Position numbers and translations under genes: made by a program
The notes under the pieces: generated by a model
The model's database searches: none
What the model was told of the DNA's origin: nothing
The model's input: only the letters and a program-made list of their open reading frames with translations
Shown here: positions 6,514-8,126 of the stretch, piece after piece
Layout: the number at the start of each line of letters is the position of its first letter
How positions within the stretch are numbered: position 1 is the stretch's first letter
Source of the DNA: Roseovarius pacificus
GTDB lineage: Bacteria; Pseudomonadota; Alphaproteobacteria; Rhodobacterales; Rhodobacteraceae
Direction of reading: 5' to 3'
Assembly: GCF_900142665.1 (NCBI RefSeq)
Contig: NZ_FRBR01000001.1
Location: 992,001 to 1,056,000 of the forward strand
DNA: 64,000 nucleotides

Positions 6514-6786
6514 CTAGACCCAGCGGAACACCGCCGCGGCATAAAGCAGGCAAACCAGCATCGCGTAGGGCTGATGCGCCCCCACGATCGCCAACCAGGC
6601 CAGATTGATGAAGGCCGAGCCCAAGAGCGTGATGAACAACCTGTCACCGCGCGTCGTTTCGATCCCCAGAACGCCGTGCCGGGGTGTTTCGGGATACCTG
6701 ACCGCCAACACCGTGAAGGTGATCAACAATGCCGCAATTACTCCAAAGAATGCGGCGGTCGGCCATGTCCATGCCATCCATTCCAT
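6514..6786 (-). CDS. glpU: DUF2160 small membrane protein of the glycerol ABC operon
   Basis: A 90-residue protein with three probable membrane segments: WPTAAFFGVIAALLITFTV, LFITLLGSAFINLAWLAIV and YAMLVCLLYAAAVFRW. The family (DUF2160) is found between the permease and binding-protein genes of glpSTPQUV-type operons. Its biochemical role is not established; an accessory of the permease complex is plausible. A strong AAGGAGGT ribosome binding site precedes the ATG. In this genome a palindrome-flanked nuclease gene lies between it and glpQ. Confidence 0.8.
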   Translation of the reverse strand: MEWMAWTWPTAAFFGVIAALLITFTVLAVRYPETPRHGVLGIETTRGDRLFITLLGSAFINLAWLAIVGAHQPYAMLVCLLYAAAVFRWV

Positions 6787-6814
6787 TTAGAATACCTCCT
6801 TCCGATACAGCACC

Positions 6815-6844
6815 GTCATCCTCGGGCCCGACCCGAGGATCTCC
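6815..6844. repeat. REP-like palindrome, left end of GIY-YIG cassette
   Basis: A hairpin with perfect 9-bp arms (ATCCTCGGG / CCCGAGGAT) and loop CCCGA, preceded by GTC and followed by CTCC. It is the inverted partner of 7219-7248. When read through, palindromes of this kind encode peptides such as HVILGPDPRIS or SSSGLTRGS, which is why automatic gene finders often extend neighbouring genes into them. Confidence 0.85.
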
Positions 6845-6869
6845 TGGCCATCAAGCCATCCGGTCGAGT

Positions 6870-7184
6870 TTAACGATGATGAAGGTCTGGTTGGCCGGAA
6901 ATCTCCTGCCAAAAATCGACCCAATCGGGATTGGCTTGCTCGACCAGTTCGATTTTCCAGTCGCGGCTCCAGCGCTTCAAAGCCTTTTCGCGCCGAATCG
7001 CTGCGGCAGGTTCGACGTGATGCTCGTACCAGATCAGACGTGTGAGATTGTAGCGGTCGGTAAATCCGGAAATTGCGTGGGTGCGATGTTCCCAGACACG
7101 CCGCACAAGATCGTTTGTGACCCCGATGTAAAGCGTCCCGTGGCGTTTGTTCGTCACGATATAAACGTACATGTCTTTGGGCAT
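6870..7184 (-). CDS. GIY-YIG family nuclease, small stand-alone type
   Basis: A 104-residue protein consisting of one GIY-YIG domain. The start MPKDMYVYIVTNKRHGTLYIG contains the two family strands, with YIV for GIY and YIG for YIG (about residues 7-20). The catalytic-region arginine lies in TNDLVRRVWEHR, and the C-terminal Glu side in RREKALKRWSR. The ATG at 7184 is preferred because upstream in-frame codons run into the palindrome. Proteins of this UPF0213-like class are common in alphaproteobacteria and their biological role is not established. The flanking inverted palindromes suggest a selfish element or a repeat-maintenance enzyme. Confidence 0.85.
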   Translation of the reverse strand: MPKDMYVYIVTNKRHGTLYIGVTNDLVRRVWEHRTHAISGFTDRYNLTRLIWYEHHVEPAAAIRREKALKRWSRDWKIELVEQANPDWVDFWQEISGQPDLHHR

Positions 7185-7218
7185 TGGTCGCCTCAAACTG
7201 CGTGAGGCGCTCCTCCAC

Positions 7219-7248
7219 GGAGATCCTCGGGTCAGGCCCGAGGATGAC
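7219..7248. repeat. REP-like palindrome, right end of GIY-YIG cassette
   Basis: Inverted copy of 6815-6844 with a single C/T difference in the loop; the 9-bp arms are perfect. It lies 26 bp before the glpQ stop side of the gap. Confidence 0.85.
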
Positions 7249-7274
7249 ATGCCTGGGGTTAATGAATGGTTCCA

Positions 7275-8126
<852 letters not shown>

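Follow-up and report, generated by a model that had tools for sequence, protein, structure and literature searches.

Why should a gene for a small nuclease stand between two inverted palindromes inside a bacterial operon? The question is raised by a cassette in a 64-kb stretch of the Roseovarius pacificus genome (contig NZ_FRBR01000001.1, positions 992,001 to 1,056,000; hereafter the window, the whole stretch that was analysed, to which all positions below refer unless a locus is named). The enclosed gene encodes a GIY-YIG nuclease, and the palindromes resemble repetitive extragenic palindromes (REPs) of the kind that carries a CGTC tag. We think it probable that the cassette is a dimer of REPs with the gene of a minimal, Slx1-like GIY-YIG nuclease as its spacer, and that this nuclease is the cognate partner of CGTC-tagged REPs. 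The cassette comprises the following features.

6814..7249, no strand assigned: the whole REP–nuclease–REP cassette, 436 bp
6814..6844, plus strand: REP copy 3′ of the gene, with the CGTC tag at 6814–6817, the hairpin at 6818–6840 (9-bp stem, 5-nt loop) and the inner flank to 6844
6870..7184, minus strand: GIY-YIG nuclease gene, 104 amino acids (aa), likely start ATG at 7184, frame open to 7250 through the REP
7219..7249, minus strand: inverted REP copy 5′ of the gene, with the hairpin at 7223–7245 and a TGTC tag on the minus strand at 7246–7249

The two arms (6815–6844 and 7219–7248) are 97% complementary across 30 nt, with 374 nt between them, and each has a 9-bp stem beginning with AT and a 5-nt loop. 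With up to two mismatches allowed, the window has two matches to this palindrome pattern, for an expectation of 0.05, and none of 100 shuffles contained two; two such palindromes within 64 kb are not chance. The open reading frame (ORF) between the arms matches the GIY-YIG family PF01541 (E = 1.1e-14). The arm complementarity and this match confirm what an earlier note on this DNA had described, namely two 30-bp palindromes of 29/30 inverted identity that enclose one GIY-YIG gene. CGTC REPs have been characterized by stems of 8–9 bp beginning with AT, loops of 4–5 nt, a CGTC, TGTC or CCTC tag, a mostly CCA tail and an arrangement in inverted dimers, and they include the Neisseria dRS3 elements and RPE-4 and RPE-6 of Rickettsia conorii (PMC3733652). 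As far as the available part of that study goes, they seem to be without a dedicated transposase, and in the CGTC-positive species named there no tyrosine transposase gene with CGTC flanks was found. The window copies carry CGTC and TGTC tags and the AT-initial stems and 5-nt loops listed above; their tails read CTC, unlike CCA. By most criteria they belong among the CGTC REPs.

Relatives of the window nuclease occur in 158 of 387 alphaproteobacterial genomes (E ≤ 0.001), with a maximum of 11 matches in one genome. For a survey of their surroundings, loci were selected by protein similarity to the window nuclease and not by REPs, a choice that under-samples distant members. One set comprised 89 alphaproteobacterial loci (29 returned by the search and 60 taken down the match ranking) and the other the best 80 of 586 relatives that a scan across bacterial and archaeal genomes had found; loci common to both (L038/L131 and L141/L162) were retained. 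Because many loci come from metagenome assemblies, the host names of the few outside Proteobacteria may be wrong. The 169 loci hold 175 nuclease matches, and leaving out 8 with less than 330 bp of flank on one side gave 167 genes, including one 50-aa fragment (L130). Palindromes were scored with a perfect stem of at least 7 bp, a loop of 3–6 nt and a GTC tag, and were counted as nearby within 300 bp.

A tagged palindrome was nearby for 146 of the 167 nuclease genes (74/86 and 72/81 in the two sets), as against 161 of 977 other ORFs at the same loci (25/135 and 136/842). Tagged palindromes stood on both sides of 102 nuclease genes (49/86 and 53/81) and 20 other ORFs (0/135 and 20/842), and their tags pointed outwards on both sides in 68 (29/86 and 39/81) versus 3 (0/135 and 3/842). 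Seen from the palindromes, outward-tagged neighbours spaced 280–450 bp apart had a nuclease gene inside 64 times and lacked one once, in a locus (L036) that has such a gene itself. In the loci examined, outward-tagged REP pairs thus enclose this nuclease subfamily and almost nothing else. Under a looser rule, 93 cassettes had a median length of 389 bp (range 339–841). The 182 REPs of 91 cassettes carry CGTC (109), TGTC (63), GGTC (6) or AGTC (4), GTC having been required for detection; a CCA tail, which played no part in detection, is present in 115 of the 182. The earlier note had proposed a system that pairs REP-like palindromes with a nuclease unrelated to the REP-associated tyrosine transposases (RAYTs), and this is borne out: the nuclease subfamily is tied to CGTC REPs in Proteobacteria and in some other records.

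Gene and repeat also vary together. Within a cassette, the left and right arms are identical at all seven loop-proximal stem bases in 47 of 82 cases, compared with 8.9% of 3851 pairs from different cassettes that share a loop class. REP loop class is followed by the nuclease tree, inside host families too: 18 loop-class changes are required, where shuffling gave a mean of 43.8 and a minimum of 34, and for alphaproteobacteria alone 12 changes against 22.0, or against 16.4 when shuffling was confined to host families, where none of 300 shuffles was as low (44 of the 174 tree rows had no loop class, a conflicting class or a loop of other length). Across the 387 alphaproteobacterial genomes, both partners were present in 42, REPs only in 19, the nuclease only in 92 and neither in 234, an odds ratio of 5.6 at thresholds of at least 4 pattern hits and nuclease E ≤ 1e-10, without phylogenetic correction. 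The nuclease-only count is inflated because the two REP patterns used are narrow and have no hit even in the window's genome; the REP totals exclude counts of 1 for a pattern, an omission that leaves the thresholds of 4 and 10 unaffected. In 7 of 36 cases, short REP dimers share subterminal sequence with the cassette at their own locus, as opposed to 0.09% of 7485 between-locus comparisons, no REP being shared between dimer and cassette.

Two side observations touch on these associations. At apparently the same site in three Bradyrhizobium loci, nuclease genes are accompanied by REPs of different loop class (CTTGA in L091, GAAG-type in L095 and L110), as if REPs were exchangeable around the gene. 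In L226 (about 2663–2815) and L167, REPs stand around a 3′ fragment of the nuclease gene; such truncated cassettes are a possible step towards gene-less dimers.

The history of the window's own cassette can be followed in the genus, where it lies between two genes of the host operon.

6514..6786, minus strand: gene for a DUF2160 membrane protein, host operon, downstream neighbour
7275..8126, minus strand: ATP-binding cassette (ABC) permease gene, host operon, upstream neighbour

The earlier note names these flanking genes glpQ and glpU and gives the operon a glycerol role; we call the gap between them the glp site. A homologue of the nuclease gene occupies it in 11 of 84 genomes of the genus, the other ten being 61–70% identical to the window's gene. 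The left flank is common to 10 of the 11 loci (the eleventh, L065, adjoins an assembly gap), and the cassettes would therefore most simply descend from one old insertion, kept vertically and inherited with change. Without the cassette, the gap measures 13–22 bp in four members of the genus and in one genome of another family, and 7 and 39 bp at two further loci; L016 has the shared left flank and an apparent REP end with no gene. The empty sites that the earlier note had suggested looking for in the glpQ–glpU gap do exist, and on this point its reading is supported; the age of the insertion, as judged from the divergence of the ten homologues, does not support it as worded. In several relatives (L007, L009, L010, L014 and L015) the gap holds unrelated sequence of 247–672 bp, apparently other small genes, so the junction seems to be tolerant of insertion.

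At least one tagged palindrome accompanies all 11 glp-site genes, and in 9 of the 11 they stand on both sides. All 11 genomes that have the glp-site nuclease contain the exact palindrome, as do 15 of the 73 others, and at least 8 copies were counted in 9 of the 11 versus 4 of the 73. A divergent GIY-YIG subfamily of the same genus (34–47% identity; 13 loci, L069–L081, in 13 of 84 genomes; a 125-aa open frame in 9 of the 13 loci) served as a negative control: 12 of its 13 loci had no tagged palindrome nearby and the remaining one had it on one side only.

Elsewhere, too, orthologous sites differ in whether they carry the cassette, and a double-tagged palindrome can replace it. In the fnrL–fixJ gap of Sphingobium plasmids, seven records hold a cassette (TomMM7A, TYG42, TYG43, TYG71, MM15, TYG73 and TYG46; three of the seven were read base by base), two hold a palindrome of the form CGTC...GACG (arms perfect in TYG64, imperfect in TYG74), and TYG72, TYG65 and S. 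herbicidovorans have neither form, other palindromes being present in TYG72 and TYG65. In a flanking-gene tree of eight Sphingobium records, the three with a cassette group as a single clade (100/100), outside which both solo records fall. This topology agrees with a cassette having been gained at a solo palindrome, but repeated loss of the cassette would be only slightly less parsimonious. In Sinorhizobium meliloti Ak57 the gltA–lpxB gap contains a cassette and a truncated copy, and in strain C101 (95.7% identical) a degenerate REP next to a single palindrome whose ends resemble tags (CCTC...GACA). The evidence from a second site, near purQ, is weaker: in C101 several palindromes of a different arm type stand around the gene, and in Ak57 the site has a single imperfect palindrome ending in CCTC...GAGG. 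Palindromes that strictly carry two tags are uncommon otherwise, making up 4 of the 1604 hairpins at the 169 loci. In Shinella, three plasmid records carry a cassette that three relatives lack at the site; two of these relatives are free of REPs there, and the third has a short palindrome-like stretch rich in GC.

Of the two features expected of an insertion sequence, inverted ends and a target-site duplication, the cassette has the inverted ends; inspection by eye of the glp and Sphingobium sites, none of which offered a clean insertion junction, found no target-site duplication. The only close pair within one genome lies side by side in L123 (90% over 544 bp). Two pairs lack homologous flanks: L111/L118 (79% over 325 bp), on metagenome-assembled contigs whose records are named for different phyla, and L192/L213 (80% over 343 bp, with 39–40 bp of identical inverted ends), for which the flank covered was only 3 kb. 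The pair L179/L182 was considered as a case of movement and dismissed as one and the same site.

What kind of enzyme does the cassette encode? Its likely start is the ATG at 7184 (MPKDMYVYI...), because the same ATG is immediately preceded by an in-frame TAA in a relative (G008); the remainder of the G008 gene is open and its core free of stops. A longer protein that would start within the palindrome and take its N-terminus from it (MSSSGLTRGSP...) is the less likely reading, owing to the G008 stop, though the frame runs open through the palindrome in 7 of 10 same-site relatives. The glp-site gene is under purifying selection, with a median omega of 0.18 (47 unsaturated of 55 pairs) and a value of 0.12 for the DUF2160 gene in comparison (55 pairs). 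Against the Protein Data Bank (PDB), the family profile matched 1zg2 (E = 4.2e-9) and 1ywl (UPF0213), and UvrC weakly. An AlphaFold model (predicted local distance difference test, pLDDT, 92.1; predicted template modelling score, pTM, 0.84) is closest in fold to 1zg2 and then to Slx1 chains, an E value of 0.001 being reached by the first match only; I-TevI matched weakly, at rank 14 (E = 1.2). The one further GIY-YIG match in the window's genome lies on another contig within a 637-aa open frame, which is probably UvrC. The cassette enzyme is a standalone minimal GIY-YIG domain, and in the available part of PMC1564403 standalone prokaryotic GIY-YIG proteins are assigned to the Slx1 cluster; Slx1–Slx4 acts on branched DNA, according to the title of PDB entry 6seh. 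The same paper reports a GIY-YIG insertion in HsdR of Methylococcus capsulatus. A nuclease of Slx1 lineage is a plausible cutter of hairpins or cruciforms.

We propose that the nuclease recognises the REP in folded form, the tag together with a hairpin or cruciform, and makes a nick or cut there. The gene between its REPs would then spread rarely, through break-repair copying or transfer between strains; short REP dimers would be gene-less derivatives of cassettes, and deletion between two REPs would leave a solo palindrome. In the window's species the cassette would be an old resident of the operon, kept vertically without dispersed REP copies. Of the two possible roles, spread of the gene as a mobile unit would fit the patchiness and the solo/cassette alternatives, and retention as a host enzyme that processes REPs would fit its long persistence at one site and the lack of dispersed copies of recent date.

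A number of observations count against pairing the nuclease with CGTC REPs in this way. Neither cutting nor movement was observed. In the window's own genome the mismatch-free palindrome is found at the two cassette sites only, so the repetition typical of CGTC REPs is lacking and the genome-wide dispersal raised in the earlier note does not hold there, though sister species with a glp-site gene have 4–19 copies of the same palindrome. In the survey, 21 of 167 nuclease genes had no tagged palindrome nearby, and inward tags, the opposite polarity, flanked 14 (8/86 and 6/81), compared with 7 of 977 other ORFs (0/135 and 7/842). The tree signal is weaker when all labelled rows are stratified by family (18 changes against 22.2, 4 of 300 shuffles as low). 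Fewer than 4 hits of the two REP patterns were found in 92 of 134 nuclease genomes. Of 39 alphaproteobacterial genomes rich in REPs, 10 gave no nuclease match at E ≤ 1e-10; palindromes 'always near' this nuclease family, a condition set in the earlier note, is thus too strong. Apart from the family-stratified tree test, the p-values ignore phylogeny, the Fisher tests treating genomes as independent. Two of the 11 glp-site genes contain an in-frame stop. Recent dispersed copies were not found, the best protein identity within one genome being 69% (15 copies in 3 genomes), and L106/L120 (89% along 376 bp, from one REP to the other) is excluded as a case of recent movement because its 10-kb flanks are homologous and mark it as a single site. 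The REP-rich genomes without a match have 11–144 pattern hits (G103, G257, G294, G382 and six others); they may have lost the partner, or have a different enzyme.

Some of these points would suit a nuclease that serves the host, a housekeeper akin to SbcCD or Slx1 that trims or resolves REP hairpins and cruciforms, lies near REPs because it regulates them or is regulated by them, and belongs to no mobile unit. Purifying selection, long residence at one site of the genus, the Slx1-like fold and the lack of recent dispersed copies all agree with such a role. We nevertheless consider it unlikely, since a housekeeper would hardly be as patchy as this gene, which is missing from most of the 387 alphaproteobacterial genomes and found in 23 of 84 genomes of the genus even when both GIY-YIG subfamilies are counted, would not be expected to have up to 11 matches in one genome or to be lacking where REPs abound, and has no need of outward-tagged enclosure.

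That the enzyme might be no more than cargo, with the REP ends moved by a RAYT, an insertion sequence transposase or general recombination, seems to us improbable. Plain deletion between repeats can yield solo palindromes, and some CGTC-REP species do encode tyrosine transposases (PMC3733652, as available), but the passenger is nearly always the same gene (64 times against 1) and its tree tracks REP class. Chance neighbourhood, in which REPs settle between genes and come to surround a small dispensable one, or act only as terminators, draws some support from the predominance of REPs 3′ of coding regions in the available part of the same paper. It is very improbable all the same: control ORFs whose flanks were free for 100 bp or more on each side had tagged palindromes on both sides in 9 of 122 cases and an outward pair in none of the 122, the polarity is that of one dimer and not of two adjacent dimers, arms match within cassettes, and the other GIY-YIG subfamily of the genus is mostly unflanked.

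How does a REP dimer with a nuclease gene as its spacer relate to known systems? The nearest parallel in organization is the REPtron, in which GTAG REPs accompany a RAYT (TnpA-REP): in both, a partner enzyme gene is flanked by inverted REPs, enzyme and REP evolve together, and short REP dimers resemble gene-less derivatives (PMC8266576 and PMC3733652, as far as available). The cassette differs in its tag, CGTC instead of GTAG, in its small size and in its enzyme, which belongs to the GIY-YIG and not the HuH/Y1 tyrosine transposase class; because of the last difference it works like a REPtron and is not one. From the CGTC REPs as described, for which the available part of PMC3733652 reports no dedicated enzyme, it differs in having a GIY-YIG gene as the dimer spacer. 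The prokaryotic Slx1-like proteins share its minimal domain and, in 1zg2 and 1ywl, provide its best profile and fold matches; an association with REPs is not mentioned in the available text of PMC1564403, where 'palindrom' has 0 occurrences. With GIY-YIG homing endonucleases of I-TevI type the cassette has in common a selfish nuclease gene present or absent at a site, the solo palindrome being a possible target, and the double-tagged palindromes at orthologous sites are compatible with homing into a gene-less allele; unlike those endonucleases, it has REP ends and no intron or intein was seen.

A literature search found no paper linking GIY-YIG nucleases to REPs; subscription journals, for the most part, and bioRxiv preprints were beyond its scope, and priority is not certain. 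CGTC REPs form one of the two large superfamilies of bacterial palindromic repeats, and their mover was left open in 2013 (PMC3733652, as available). The GIY-YIG enzyme is a strong candidate for the partner that this widespread family appears to lack, and a specific nuclease that co-varies with REPs, is widespread and is enclosed by them reduces the question of the mover to a simple cutting assay. If the enzyme does cut its own REP, REPs have gained partner enzymes on two or more occasions, from superfamilies unrelated to each other, and a unit of about 390 bp would, to our knowledge, rank among the smallest candidate autonomous mobile elements. A bolder proposal, which we regard as possible yet doubtful, is that of a minimal autonomous mobile element of about 340–440 bp, with a GIY-YIG gene of about 95–105 codons and CGTC REP ends, that copies itself into cut double-tagged palindromes by break repair and whose gene-less derivatives are the bacterial CGTC REPs, dRS3 and RPE-4/6 among them.

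Relatives of the nuclease were also found beyond the two locus sets. A scan of viral contigs gave 52, of which 48 had enough flank; 19 of these, in stretches that may be viral or host, had an outward pair and 13 no tagged palindrome. On plasmid p1 of Planktothrix agardhii (L228, 2700–3500), a related GIY-YIG gene lies between the gene for an MmeI-type restriction enzyme and the DISARM gene drmA, ringed by imperfect repeats of the forms GTCATTCTGAG...GAATCTC and GAGATCC...CAGGATGAC; these repeats, which the strict hairpin finder misses, resemble a cyanobacterial counterpart.
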